Assembly: GCF_019711395.1 (NCBI RefSeq)
Contig: NZ_JAIGNL010000001.1
Location: 806,001-870,000, forward strand
Source of the DNA: Qipengyuania xiapuensis
Lineage (GTDB): Bacteria > Pseudomonadota > Alphaproteobacteria > Sphingomonadales > Sphingomonadaceae
Reading direction: 5' to 3'
DNA: 64,000 nt
Part shown: in pieces, positions 16,659 to 62,362 of the stretch
Layout of the letters: every line of letters starts with the position of its first letter
Position numbering within the stretch: the stretch's first letter is position 1
The notes under the pieces: model-generated
What the model was told of the DNA's origin: nothing
What the model saw: only the letters and a program-made list of their open reading frames with translations
Database searches by the model: none
Program-made: the position numbers and the translations under genes

Positions 16659-16763
16659 GGAGCGCGCCCTAGACGGTTTTCCAATTCATGGCGAGCATAA
16701 CGAATGGGGCCGGAAAAGACGGCAATTCTGCTCGCGGGCGAAAATTTATCGCACGCCAGATGA

Positions 16764-16799
16764 ATTAAATCGCAAACGAGGTCCGTTTTCCTTTCAAGC
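16764..16799. promoter_or_regulatory. Shared bipartite element, copy 1
   Basis: ATTAA at 16764-16768, then 14 bases, then CCGTTTTCCTTTCAAGC at 16783-16799, ending 37 bases before an exported-protein gene. The same ATTAA, same 14-base spacing and identical 17-mer occur at 19879-19914 before another exported-protein gene. It is likely a promoter or operator; which factor reads it is unknown. Confidence 0.55.
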
Positions 16800-16836
16800 C
16801 GGTCGCAGGGGCGCCCGGCAGCAAAAGGAGAACGTC

Positions 16837-17181
16837 ATGAAACTCACCGCCACCTTGCCGATGATCGCCCTCGGCCTTGCCACTGCCGCGACTGCCGCAG
16901 TGCCGATGCTGCACGAAGAGAAGTACGCGCGCGACCAGGAAGCGCTGATCTTCACCAGCCCGATCGCCGGCATCGAGAACCGCTTCTGGTTCGACTACCG
17001 CATCGACATCACCGAAGCGCAGAAGGAACTCACCAGCGACCTTCGCCGCGCATCTGACATCGAAGACCTGCGTGATGCGTGGGAAGAATATGGTCACGAG
17101 CTCAAGGAAGAACGTGAGCACTACATCAAGGAAATGGCCGAGCGCGGTTATCGCTACGGCCAGGTGATCGTGGTCGAATAA
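16837..17181 (+). CDS. Small exported protein, unknown function
   Basis: 114 residues. An N-terminal signal peptide (MKLTATLPMIALGLATAATA, cleavage near residue 20) is followed by a charged, largely helical domain rich in Glu and Arg, without Cys. The ATG at 16837 has AAAGGAG nine bases upstream. It is followed by a strong terminator, so it is monocistronic. It shares an upstream element with the exported protein at 19969. No family recognised. Confidence 0.8.
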   Translation: MKLTATLPMIALGLATAATAAVPMLHEEKYARDQEALIFTSPIAGIENRFWFDYRIDITEAQKELTSDLRRASDIEDLRDAWEEYGHELKEEREHYIKEMAERGYRYGQVIVVE

Positions 17182-17236
17182 TCTCGAAAACCAAGTCCCA
17201 CGGCCTCGCGTGTCCCTGCGCGAGGCCGACCCTCGA

Positions 17237-17271
17237 GGAAGGACCGGTCGACCCGCCGGTCCTTCCTTTTT
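17237..17271 (+). terminator. Rho-independent terminator
   Basis: An 11-bp stem, GGAAGGACCGG (17237-17247) with CCGGTCCTTCC (17256-17266), an 8-base loop, then TTTTT (17267-17271). It ends the small exported-protein gene on the plus strand. Confidence 0.9.
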
Positions 17272-17292
17272 CGTGCCTGCGGCGAATTGCGC

Positions 17293-17331
17293 AAAAAGAA
17301 AGGTCGCGGTCCCGTTGGGGAGCGCGACCTT
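17293..17331 (-). terminator. Rho-independent terminator of the sigma/anti-sigma operon
   Basis: On the minus strand AAGGTCGCG (17331-17323) pairs with CGCGACCTT (17308-17300) and is followed by TCTTTTT. It lies 25 bases after the anti-sigma stop. Confidence 0.85.
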
Positions 17332-17355
17332 CACTGATGCAATTGAGAACGGGTC

Positions 17356-18066
17356 CTAGCGCCAGCCTGCTTCGCGAGCAGCCGCTTCGGCCCCGGCATC
17401 GAGGGCGGGCCCTGCAGAGAGTTCCTGTGCGATCGCGAGAATCTCGCCATCGCCAGCGCCAGCCATGCGGTATTCGGTTCCCGAGGCTTCGCTGCTTTCG
17501 CCGAGAGCTTCCAGTTTCCAGCCAGTCTCGTCGCGGCAGGCGATACCGCCACCTTCGGACCCGCTGAAGGCCCGGCAGAATTCGGCGTCGTCGTTACGGA
17601 AGCTCAGCAGGATGCGTGTATCGGCACCGCGCTGCTGCTCTGCCACCAGCGCTTGATCGAGCACGGAGGCGAGCTCGGCATCGGCATAGCCTTCGGGTCC
17701 TTCATCGCCGCGCGGCAAGAATACCGCGATGGCGAGCGAAGCAGCGAGGGCTGGGCCGGCAATCCAGCCCCAGCGCGGCATCTTGCGCTTCTCATCGCGG
17801 CGCTCTTTTGCTGCCGCGAAATCGACGACTTCGGCCGAAGCTTCGGTCTCTGCAGCCGGCTGCAACATTGCCGCTAGGTGCCCAGGGACCGGTTCTTCGG
17901 CGATCGGCTCGAAATGGCCCTTGAGCATCGCCTTGAGCGCGCGATGCTTGGCAACCTCTTCCATCAAAGCGGGATCGGCCGCGACTGCGGCGGCCACTTC
18001 AGCCTCGCGCTCACCTGTAAGCTGGCCGTCGGCAAAGGCAGCGAGTTCTTCGCTGGTGATGCTCAT
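17356..18066 (-). CDS. Transmembrane anti-sigma factor
   Basis: 236 residues. The N-terminal cytoplasmic part (1-95) starts SITSEELAAFADGQLTGER, typical of zinc-less anti-sigma domains that bind ECF sigma factors. One membrane helix (about 103-120, WGWIAGPALAASLAIAVFL) leads to a periplasmic domain with two Cys near residues 165-180 (EFC...IAC). It overlaps the sigma gene by ATGA, the usual coupling for such pairs. It should hold the sigma factor inactive until an envelope signal arrives. Confidence 0.88.
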   Translation of the reverse strand: MSITSEELAAFADGQLTGEREAEVAAAVAADPALMEEVAKHRALKAMLKGHFEPIAEEPVPGHLAAMLQPAAETEASAEVVDFAAAKERRDEKRKMPRWGWIAGPALAASLAIAVFLPRGDEGPEGYADAELASVLDQALVAEQQRGADTRILLSFRNDDAEFCRAFSGSEGGGIACRDETGWKLEALGESSEASGTEYRMAGAGDGEILAIAQELSAGPALDAGAEAAAREAGWR

Positions 18067-18527
18067 GTTGCTTCTCCCAGGAGGCCCATCAACGCGTCGC
18101 GCCCGCGAACGAGCCGCGAATTCAGCGTCCCCACGGGGCAGCCCACGATTTCGGCGGCCTCCTTATATGCGTAGCCTTCGACCATGACGAGGAGCACGGC
18201 TTCGCGCTGGTCTTCGGGCAGTTTCTGCATGGCGCGGTCGATATTGGACAATTCCACTGCCGATTCCTGTGCGCCGTCACCGCCGACGCCTGCGCCGGCT
18301 TCCTCGGCGACGAAAGTCTCGCGGCGCCGCGTAACCTTGCGGCCTTCGTCGATCCAGATATTGCGCATGATCCGGTACATCCAGCTGTCGAGCCGCGTGC
18401 CCTCGGCCCATTTGGACCGGTTGGACAGGGCGCGCTCGATGGTCATCTGGCAAAGATCGTCACCGTCGGGATGATTGCCGGCGAGCCCGACTGCGAAACG
18501 GCGCAGTCGGGGCATCAGGGCCAGCAA
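18063..18527 (-). CDS. ECF-type RNA polymerase sigma factor
   Basis: 154 residues from a TTG at 18527. Region 2 contains DDLCQMTIERAL and RLDSWMYRIMRNIWID; region 4 has LPEDQREAVLLVMVEGYAYKEAAEIVG, typical of ECF factors. No ATG or GTG lies between the upstream stop (18594-18596) and this TTG. The conserved sequence seems to run further, to CTG at 18551, which has GGAAGG eight bases upstream; that codon would give LSTSFESDLLALMPRL and 162 residues. The anti-sigma gene follows with an overlap. It probably directs envelope-related genes, perhaps including the adjacent protease. Confidence 0.88.
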   Translation of the reverse strand: MLALMPRLRRFAVGLAGNHPDGDDLCQMTIERALSNRSKWAEGTRLDSWMYRIMRNIWIDEGRKVTRRRETFVAEEAGAGVGGDGAQESAVELSNIDRAMQKLPEDQREAVLLVMVEGYAYKEAAEIVGCPVGTLNSRLVRGRDALMGLLGEAT

Positions 18528-18635
18528 GTCGGACTCGAACGATGTGCTCAGTGTCTTTGCCTTCCAGGGATTAAACGGATGATCCGGTGCGTTTCATCCA
18601 TGCTTAATGCGTTTTAGTGGAGTACCGACAGAGCG

Positions 18636-19856
18636 ATGCGTCCCCTTTTCCTCATTTGTGCGCTCTTCGCGCTGCTCACGGCCCCCTTGGCTGCGCAGGT
18701 TTCGCTGCCTCGGATCGGTGTGCCGGATGTCGGCGGCGTGCTCGACCAGGTCGATGACACTCTCGACCGGAGCACGCGCGAGATCGAACGGCAGGTCGAA
18801 AGGCTGGCCCGTGACCGGCTTCGGCGGATCAATCGTCTCGTGAGGCGAAACAGCGATGCAATCGAATTGGACGCAAGCGGAGCGCCCGCGCGCCGGGGTG
18901 AACTGCTGGTCATGGATGCGCCGGCGGAGGCGCTGGAGCGCGCGAACCAGGATGGCTTCACTGTCCTTTCCCGCGAGAACATCGAAGGGCTGGACCTTGC
19001 TGTCATACGTCTCGGGGTTCCCGAAGGCATGAGCCTTTCCGATGCCGAGATGAGATTGCGCGGCATTCTTCCCGGTGCCGAGATTTCCGCCGACAACCTG
19101 CATTTCCAATCGGGCAATGCGAGTGTGGCAACGCTTGCGCTCTCTGCTTCTTCGACCAGTTCCGCAGGGGCGCCGGTCGGCATGATTGATGGCGCGCCCA
19201 GTTCCGCAGTCAAGGTCTCCGAAATGCGCGGATTTGCGAAAGGAGCTCCTTACCCGAGCAATCACGGTAGCGCTGTCGCATCGCTCCTCGCCTACGCAGG
19301 TGCCGGGCCGATCCGCGTCGCAGATGTCTATGGAACAGACAAGGCAGGCGGGAACGCACTCGCCATGGCCAAGGGGCTCGGCTGGCTGGTTGCAAAGGGC
19401 AGCAAGGTGGTGACGATCAGCCTTGTGGGGCCGCGCAATGCGGTCCTTGGCCGCGCCATCGCCGCGGCCCAGCGCAAGGGCGTGGTCGTGGTCGCGGCTG
19501 TCGGCAATGACGGCCCCGCATCCCCGCCTTCCTATCCTGCTTCCTACAAGGGCGTGGTTGCTGTCACTGCAGTCGACGGCAAGCGGCGTGCACTCATCGA
19601 GGCGGGCCGTGCGCTCCACCTCGATTACGCAGCGCCGGGCGCTGACATTTACGGACGCAATGCCAAGGGCCATCGTATCGAACTGCGCGGCACGTCCTTT
19701 GCCACACCGCTGGTCGCGGCACGTGCCTCGCAGGCCATCGCACGGGGCAACGACTGGCGCGGCGTCCTCGACGGCGAAGCGATAGACCTCGGGCGGAAGG
19801 GGCATGATGAAACCTTCGGCCGCGGCCTGGTCTGCGCCTCCTGCACGGGGCGCTGA
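18636..19856 (+). CDS. Exported subtilisin-like serine protease (S8 family)
   Basis: 406 residues. Signal peptide with cleavage near LTAPLAAQ (residue 21). A charged pro-region (25-165) is predicted, then the S8 domain: Asp in VGMIDGAP, His in NHGSAVAS, oxyanion Asn in AVGNDGP and Ser in RGTSFATPL. The spacing of these is normal for S8. The Cys pair at the C terminus (CASC) could form a disulfide. It is divergent from the ECF sigma gene with a gap of about 85-110 bases, so it may be a target of that factor. Confidence 0.9.
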   Translation: MRPLFLICALFALLTAPLAAQVSLPRIGVPDVGGVLDQVDDTLDRSTREIERQVERLARDRLRRINRLVRRNSDAIELDASGAPARRGELLVMDAPAEALERANQDGFTVLSRENIEGLDLAVIRLGVPEGMSLSDAEMRLRGILPGAEISADNLHFQSGNASVATLALSASSTSSAGAPVGMIDGAPSSAVKVSEMRGFAKGAPYPSNHGSAVASLLAYAGAGPIRVADVYGTDKAGGNALAMAKGLGWLVAKGSKVVTISLVGPRNAVLGRAIAAAQRKGVVVVAAVGNDGPASPPSYPASYKGVVAVTAVDGKRRALIEAGRALHLDYAAPGADIYGRNAKGHRIELRGTSFATPLVAARASQAIARGNDWRGVLDGEAIDLGRKGHDETFGRGLVCASCTGR

Positions 19857-19878
19857 GAAATTTCTCGAGATAATTTGG

Positions 19879-19914
19879 ATTAAGCGGAAGACCCCGCCCG
19901 TTTTCCTTTCAAGC
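19879..19914. promoter_or_regulatory. Shared bipartite element, copy 2
   Basis: ATTAA at 19879-19883, 14 bases, CCGTTTTCCTTTCAAGC at 19898-19914, ending 54 bases before the ATG at 19969. It is identical in the 17-mer and in spacing to copy 1 at 16764-16799. Confidence 0.55.
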
Positions 19915-19968: not shown

Positions 19969-20829
19969 ATGAAACATCTCATGCTCGCCGCTTCGGCACT
20001 CACTCTCATCGCAGCTCCTGCACATGCCCAGCTTCTGGGCGGTGGCGGTCTCGGCGGCGTGACCGGCACGATCAACGGCACGGTCGACACCACGCTGCGC
20101 AGTTCGACCGATCGTATCCGCTCGACCACTCGCGGTGCAGTTCGTGGCAACGCTTCGACCAATGGCGATCAGAAGGTTGACCGCGACAGCGGCGAAATCT
20201 CGATCAACCGCTCGCTAGACGCCGGGCTCGATGCGACCGCCAGCCAGTTGCTCGAAACGCCGGCCGGCATGGTCACTGGCGACGCGTCGGGCTCCGGAAG
20301 CGCCTCGGGTTCGGGTAGCGCGAATGCCCAGCTGATCGGCACCGACGCGGTGCGCAGCGCCGCCGGTGACACCGTGGGCCGGGCCCGCGACGGAGTGTCC
20401 ACCGTCCGCAACCTCGCCACCCCTGCAGTCGGTGCGGCACGCGAGCGGGCCTCGGGCCTTGCTGGTCAGGCCGGCAGCGTCGCAGGCGCAGCCAATGGTG
20501 CGGCTTCGGGCGCAGGCTCGCTCGACAATGGCATGCTCGCACTTGCAGGCAGCGGCGCGGCAGACGGAGAAGGCGCCTTTGCCGTCGCTCCGGGTATGCC
20601 GGTCTACCTTCCCTCTGGCGAGCAGCTCGGCAATGTCCGCGACATCGTTGCCACGCGCCGCGGCGAGATCCGCGAGCTGGTCGTCGATACTCGTGACGGA
20701 CCGACCGCGATCCCCGCAGCCAATCTCACCGGTAGCGGCAGCGCGCTGATCACTGGCGAGGGTAGCGGATCGGCTTCCAGCGGCGATGAAGTCACGCCGG
20801 AACCGTCGGATGACGAGATCGCCGAGTAA
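19969..20829 (+). CDS. Exported Gly/Ser/Ala-rich protein with PRC-barrel-like C terminus
   Basis: 286 residues. Signal peptide ending at APAHA (residue about 20). A long low-complexity part (25-200) is rich in Gly, Ser and Ala and is likely disordered (for example GSGSASGSGSANAQ). The C-terminal part (about 205-255, MPVYLPSGEQLGNVRDIV) resembles a PRC-barrel; the tail is acidic. The ATG at 19969 has AAAGG upstream. Envelope role unknown. It shares its upstream element with the protein at 16837. Confidence 0.78.
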   Translation: MKHLMLAASALTLIAAPAHAQLLGGGGLGGVTGTINGTVDTTLRSSTDRIRSTTRGAVRGNASTNGDQKVDRDSGEISINRSLDAGLDATASQLLETPAGMVTGDASGSGSASGSGSANAQLIGTDAVRSAAGDTVGRARDGVSTVRNLATPAVGAARERASGLAGQAGSVAGAANGAASGAGSLDNGMLALAGSGAADGEGAFAVAPGMPVYLPSGEQLGNVRDIVATRRGEIRELVVDTRDGPTAIPAANLTGSGSALITGEGSGSASSGDEVTPEPSDDEIAE

Positions 20830-62245: not shown

Positions 62246-62362
62246 CGCTCGTCCTTTCGCCGGTTGTGCGGAGTTTCGCCGCTTCGCTTTTGCAATCAAC
62301 GGGATGGGATGGAGTGCGTTCCTGTGCTTCCCCGATTGCGCGGCACGGGCTAGGGAGCAGGA

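Follow-up and report, generated by a model that had tools for sequence, protein, structure and literature searches.

The window analysed here is a 64,000-nucleotide stretch of the Qipengyuania xiapuensis genome (contig NZ_JAIGNL010000001.1, positions 806,001 to 870,000), and our subject is a short DNA element that recurs around a gene for an extracytoplasmic function (ECF) sigma factor. This gene is read on the minus strand together with that of its anti-sigma factor and diverges from a gene for an exported S8 subtilase, while genes for two further exported proteins, here named exp1 and exp2, lie at the two ends of the locus. The features are the following:

16762..16788, plus strand: predicted one-way promoter of exp1, GAATTAA-N14-CCGTTT, one mismatch to GGATTAA (motif scan)
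16783..16799, plus strand: first copy of a 17-mer, covering the -10 region and the probable start region
16837..17181, plus strand: exp1, a 114-residue exported helical protein of a conserved family with no known domain
17356..18066, minus strand: anti-sigma factor, 236 residues, its ATG overlapping the sigma stop
18063..18551, minus strand: ECF sigma factor, 162 residues from a probable CTG start at 18551-18549 (profile matches, alignment)
18568..18599, both strands: palindrome GGATTAAACG-N12-CGTTTCATCC, two overlapping divergent predicted promoters
18568..18594, plus strand: predicted protease promoter inside the palindrome, GGATTAA-N14-GCGTTT (motif scan)
18573..18599, minus strand: predicted sigma/anti-sigma promoter inside the palindrome, GGATGAA-N14-CCGTTT (motif scan)
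18636..19856, plus strand: exported S8 subtilase, 406 residues, catalytic triad D185, H210, S354
19877..19903, plus strand: predicted one-way promoter of exp2, GGATTAA-N14-CCGTTT (motif scan)
19898..19914, plus strand: second copy of the 17-mer (sequence)
19969..20829, plus strand: exp2, a 286-residue exported protein with a PRC-barrel match

The first-pass annotation of this DNA had reported ATTAA-N14-CCGTTTTCCTTTCAAGC on either side of the sigma locus, and the element is indeed present at 16764-16799 and 19879-19914, both times on the plus strand and with equal spacing. The genes behind the two copies begin at 16837 and 19969 with starts that, judged by eye, resemble signal peptides, and profile matches place the sigma factor, the anti-sigma factor and the S8 protease between them. 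A pair of this kind is beyond chance, as had been proposed: the CCGTTTTCCTTTCAAGC 17-mer has two matches in the window with up to three mismatches allowed (shuffle mean 0.04), and none of 100 shuffles of the window held two or more. Across the genome (2,713,266 bases, up to two mismatches) the 17-mer occurs only at these two places, with no match in the backwards control. The observation is correct yet incomplete, two of four sites having been overlooked. Re-reading the flanks of the 17-mer gave the core GGATKAA-N15-CGTTT, that is a -35 element GGATKAA, 15 bases and a -10 element CGTTT. Scanning the 2.71 Mb genome with GGATTAA-N14-CCGTTT returned four sites at zero or one mismatch, every one of them at this locus: before exp1 (16762, plus), before exp2 (19877, plus) and, at 18568-18599, a pair that overlaps with one member on each strand. 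Beyond these four there is no clear excess over the backwards control in the window's own genome, with 21 matches at up to two mismatches (14 forward, 7 reverse) against 16 (12 and 4).

The overlapping pair forms a palindrome, GGATTAAACG-GATGATCCGGTG-CGTTTCATCC, between the minus-strand sigma gene and the plus-strand protease gene, in which the two sites meet head-on. Each arm is the -35 element on one strand and the complement of the -10 element on the other, and judged by sequence alone both strands hold a complete -35 and -10. To follow its conservation we kept the best 80 of 203 sigma relatives, which with the window make 81 loci (four of them contigs of one Erythrobacter donghaensis assembly that are identical here). 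GGATKAAACG-N12-CGTTTMATCC stands upstream of sigma in all 81, exactly in 70, with one mismatch in 8 and with two in 3. Among 70 distinct 32-mers, 15 of the 20 arm positions are invariant (2 bits), and the variable positions 5, 6, 27, 28 and 31 retain 1.41, 1.81, 1.39, 0.81 and 1.81 bits; the spacer carries 0.08-1.27 bits and is no more self-complementary than a shuffle.

Such a palindrome might serve the sigma operon only, its symmetry toward the protease being unused. Autoregulation is common among ECF sigma factors, at about 55% in the available part of PMC8103513, which speaks for this possibility. Against it, positions that only the protease direction would require show no lower conservation than the rest, except 27 and 28, and they vanish at the one-way sites; an S8 protease homolog diverges from sigma in 81 of 81 loci; and in Sinorhizobium meliloti it is the protease side that the sigma induces (PMC6180224, in the part available). 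We consider a single-direction role hardly probable at all.

The sites before exp1 and exp2 were then compared over the same loci, where homologs lie within reach in 41 of 81 (exp1) and 77 of 81 (exp2); some of the remaining loci end at a contig edge, and elsewhere the gene is displaced or absent. All 41 exp1 upstream regions carry the site at up to two mismatches (16, 17 and 8 at zero, one and two), as do 71 of the 77 exp2 regions (over all 77: 35, 28, 8, 5 and 1 at zero, one, two, three and five). Other spacings (N12-14 and N16-18) did not replace N15: the best of the six tied or beat it in 2 of 41 exp1 and 7 of 77 exp2 regions and otherwise lost. Where exp1 has moved or been inverted (L081, L083, L088, L093, L094, L095), the site accompanies it.

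These one-way sites also bear on the operator that the first-pass annotation had offered next to a promoter. At this locus the palindrome would then be a dyad bound by a dimeric transcription factor, with variants of its site on either side. In favour of an operator, most loci have inverted arms that match perfectly over 10 bases around a spacer of 12. The one-way copies keep the -35 and -10 halves and their spacing but not the dyad: among 108 deduplicated sites at up to two mismatches (41 exp1 and 67 exp2, the set used for the logos), ATCC follows the -10 element in none, ACG follows the -35 element in 8, and both symmetric extensions occur together in none, so that the dyad at all sites to be looked for with a dimeric operator was not found. 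Furthermore, sigma is the sole DNA-binding regulator among the annotated or homology-identified neighbours in the core of the window. A dyad where two genes diverge, and none where a single gene is served, fits two overlapping promoters and not an operator, which we regard as quite improbable.

The distribution of the module was followed in a survey of 60 genomes of the genus, with sigma taken at E-values of 1e-50 or below and one mismatch allowed in the palindrome, although all palindromes found were exact. Sigma and palindrome co-occur in the same 24 genomes; exp2 is present in these 24 as well, and exp1 in 23 of them plus one other genome, G241. This mainly shows that the module is gained and lost as a unit, because its genes form one locus. 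The one-way pattern is more telling: 33 of 33 matches in the genus stand before exp1 or exp2 homologs, and the backwards control gave one match. It is found in 23 of the 24 sigma genomes (the exception, G060, has varied sites) and in one of the 36 others, G241. In G719 and G738, exp2 paralogs away from sigma (L163, L164, L238, L239) have the same one-way site. When the loci were fetched and the better of the two strands was taken, 23 of 24 exp1 and 26 of 26 exp2 copies carried the site at up to two mismatches, a level that composition-shuffled controls reached in 1 of 100; the one exp1 copy without it, L202, belongs to a locus truncated at the edge of its contig, where the offset is wrong. A motif frequent across the genome and unlinked to exported genes, which the first-pass annotation had named as counter-evidence, thus appeared neither in the window's own genome nor in the genus scans.

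The genus survey further helps to judge whether the sites are read by another sigma factor of the genome, for example an EcfG-type general stress sigma. EcfG (ECF15) promoters share the CGTT -10, a similar spacing and an autoregulated sigma (PMC8103513, as far as the available part goes), more distant ECF sigmas (36-41% identical) occur in the genus, and G241 retains a site without the local sigma. However, the -35 element here is GGATKAA and not GGAAC, and the anti-sigma factor has 236 residues, unlike the small NepR. The EcfG pattern GGAAC-N16-17-CGTT had been called absent; this holds for the locus, but not for the whole window, which has one match at 62298-62322, a chance-level occurrence (mean 0.84 for the window). 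One-way matches are missing from 35 of the 36 genomes of the genus that lack the local sigma; the 8 of these genomes that were examined all contain the distant ECF sigma. Reading by another sigma is in our estimate very improbable.

Looking beyond the genus, 55 of the 297 genomes scanned from the order contain the exact palindrome, against none in the control, and so do 5 of 387 genomes drawn over the class, two of them from the order (the window genome and G023) and three from outside it. The surroundings were read in 20 of these 55 genomes in addition to the window, and in the three genomes outside the order, and each time the palindrome lay between sigma and protease. In the family of one of the outside genomes it was found in 5 of 40 (up to one mismatch), and the three new cases are again situated between sigma and protease. 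A scan of one genome per genus gave 2 of 59 with a match, both expected, and is too thin a sample to use. As a separate observation, one genome of the order, G167, has two exact palindromes far apart (C1, 1954851 and 2671546). The sigma locus itself occurs twice per genome in Qipengyuania huizhouensis (L027, L032) and Croceicoccus ponticola (L074, L089); at L032, the second locus of Q. huizhouensis, the protease is shortened and exp1 was not found.

Plasmid-borne sigma relatives, of which 11 of 1027 records were opened, display a range of layouts. Three sphingomonad plasmids carry the palindrome, exactly in L132 and L186 and with one mismatch in L185. In S. meliloti (L130) and Aminobacter (L179) a one-way GGAATA..CGTT site faces the protease alone, that of L130 being letter-identical with the mapped SMa0142 promoter in the available part of PMC6180224, and Sinorhizobium K101 (L181) has the same site with no protease there in its gene table. 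In Nitratireductor (L180) the interval from sigma to an S8 protease holds a near-palindrome of the GGAATAAACG type at 1911-1942, the same two-way layout with a different -35. Separate sites on the two strands are found in Paracoccus (L184). Skermanella (L131) has a one-way site toward sigma and no protease. Protease and palindrome are both missing from Tistrella (L182) and Chelatococcus (L183), the latter showing an EcfG-like site.

The closest known system is RpoE6-EcfR6/SMa0142 of S. meliloti, an ECF26 system in which sigma is followed by a membrane anti-sigma factor and diverges from a serine (S8) protease gene; the window locus has the same order, its anti-sigma factor being a putative membrane protein. 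According to the portion of PMC6180224 available, RpoE6 overexpression induces SMa0142, whose start has been mapped and has a GGAATA..CGTT promoter, ECF26 sigmas widely conserve a serine protease gene that diverges from their own, and the quoted ECF26 consensus is GGAATA at -35 and GT at -10. The divergent arrangement and the control of the protease by sigma are thus already known from that work. The window locus and its relatives share the ECF26 trait of a divergent serine protease (81 of 81 loci), and the window's CGTTT contains GT, whereas GGATKAA differs from the GGAATA of both the consensus and S. meliloti. S. meliloti also has no palindrome there (best match 8 mismatches), only the one-way site toward the protease. 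For the fused palindrome and its one-way copies before exp1 and exp2, and for ECF sigmas with bidirectional, overlapping or palindromic promoters, a limited literature search found nothing matching in print. PMC3247240 concerns a Zur-like repeat in the part available.

Taken together, we propose with a probability of roughly 0.87 that the element is the promoter read by the local ECF sigma, which would be an autoregulated, ECF26-like factor; its regulon would be small and local, and its promoter bidirectional and fused with that of the protease. The promoter option of the first-pass annotation is well supported by the comparative data, since an ECF geometry of fixed spacing precedes exp1 and exp2, the element recurs at sigma's own start, and the genome has no other site at zero or one mismatch. 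After testing, we set aside the operator, the EcfG-type promoter and the promoter of a single direction on the evidence given with each. Several observations weigh on the other side. Sigma and palindrome adjoin, so their joint presence is partly trivial. Six of the 77 exp2 regions lack a site within two mismatches. In addition, the best matches at L072 (two mismatches, one of the 71 counted) and at L101 (three mismatches) fall within the exp2 gene and do not represent promoters. The rpoE6 side in S. meliloti has an RpoD/RpoH-like promoter, unlike that predicted for the window sigma (PMC6180224, same portion). Finally, the exp1 copy of G241 has an intact site in a genome without such a sigma, and the surrounding 13 kb hold no homologs of sigma, anti-sigma, protease or exp2; it may be a recently moved gene or point to a second reader of the promoter. 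This exp1 copy (L178, 6345-6698; also L153 and L194) is 92-95% identical to the window's.

Under the promoter proposal, an envelope signal would inactivate the anti-sigma factor, and the freed sigma would direct RNA polymerase to GGATKAA/CGTTT. The regulon would consist of the sigma/anti-sigma operon, the divergent subtilase, exp1 and exp2, with sigma amplifying its own operon and, from the shared palindrome, inducing the protease, while exp1 and exp2 would be activated from the one-way copies. The holoenzyme could sit on the 32-base palindrome in either orientation, presumably one at a time through steric exclusion. If transcription starts 9 bases after CGTT, by analogy with SMa0142, the divergent starts are predicted about 37 bp apart, and the two -10 elements do not overlap by sequence. 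Bidirectional sigma70 promoters of Escherichia coli and Salmonella offer a parallel, as near-symmetric DNA there binds polymerase either way and one binding excludes the other (PMC12825309, PMC10268837, both in the parts available). They are defined by divergent starts 7-25 bp apart and overlapping -10 elements (PMC10268837); a near-symmetric -10 is shared, with starts 18 bp apart and 10 and 23 also common (PMC12825309, PMC10268837). In the window palindrome, by contrast, each -10 overlaps the opposite -35, the sigma is an ECF factor that probably regulates itself, and the two genes to be served by the site belong to a single module.

This geometry leads to a more tentative idea, to which we give somewhat less than even odds: the symmetric promoter may act as a two-way switch that fires toward sigma/anti-sigma or toward the protease, never both, tying self-amplification to effector output without a further regulator, with the CTG start setting the balance of sigma to anti-sigma. 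As the fuller picture of the locus, the comparative data support an ECF promoter that is conserved, works two ways and governs a small regulon of exported proteins. It would be a case of an alternative sigma whose -35 and -10 can be mutual reverse complements, giving two complete promoters within 32 bases, in a layout that has persisted across an order and, in some genomes, outside it. The site offers a clean test of polymerase competition at symmetric DNA and of how an autoregulated sigma and its effector share output.

A conserved CTG appears to be the start codon of the window's sigma gene and would probably lower sigma synthesis relative to the anti-sigma factor. The aligned first codon in the 81 loci is CTG in 67, TTG in 4, CTA in 1 and another in 9, five of which have an ATG or GTG just upstream; with duplicates removed CTG stands in 63 of 77, counts that are not independent events since the rows are related by descent. 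A Shine-Dalgarno-like GGAAGG (18565-18560) precedes the window's CTG (18551-18549), and all 63 CTG loci have such a stretch under a loose pattern, in leaders of 15-25 bases. In 56 of the 63 no in-frame ATG, GTG or TTG lies between the palindrome end and codon 8, and 6 have an in-frame stop within the leader. CTG makes up 67 of 72 leucine codons in the start column against 502 of 1018 in 13 other conserved leucine columns, where its highest share is 0.80. The TTG start at 18527 in the open-reading-frame list is too short by homology. In two of the sphingomonad plasmids, L185 (3429) and L186 (3408), public annotation uses as start codon an ATG that lies within the palindrome and precedes any likely start of transcription; the aligned codons there are CTG and TTG. 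A limited literature search gave nothing describing a CTG start in a sigma factor. If true, many genera would have kept a non-standard start codon in the same regulatory gene, a codon by which automatic annotation is misled.

As to the proteins themselves, sigma consists of regions 2 and 4 only, with Pfam Sigma70_r2 and Sigma70_r4_2 above cut-off, and its NCBIfam sigma70-ECF match, likewise above cut-off, places it in the ECF class (group IV). The anti-sigma factor is conserved in 81 of 81 loci and matches anti-sigma models solely below their curated cut-offs; 7 of 27 members give a weak NepR match. An ECF26 anti-sigma factor would have an N-terminal domain, a transmembrane part and a periplasmic domain at the C-terminus. 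By eye the window's protein has a hydrophobic stretch after the N-terminal domain, and its predicted structure shows two folded parts joined by a low-confidence stretch (mean predicted local distance difference test score 77.6, predicted template modelling score 0.46), for which no significant fold match was found. For exp1, a sequence search for solved relatives found none and a fold search gave nothing at E 0.001 or better; its ZraP entries, at E-values of 1.6 and above, do not count as evidence of kinship. The protease keeps its catalytic residues throughout, with D185 and H210 in all 78 aligned rows and S354 in 75, the other three being gaps.

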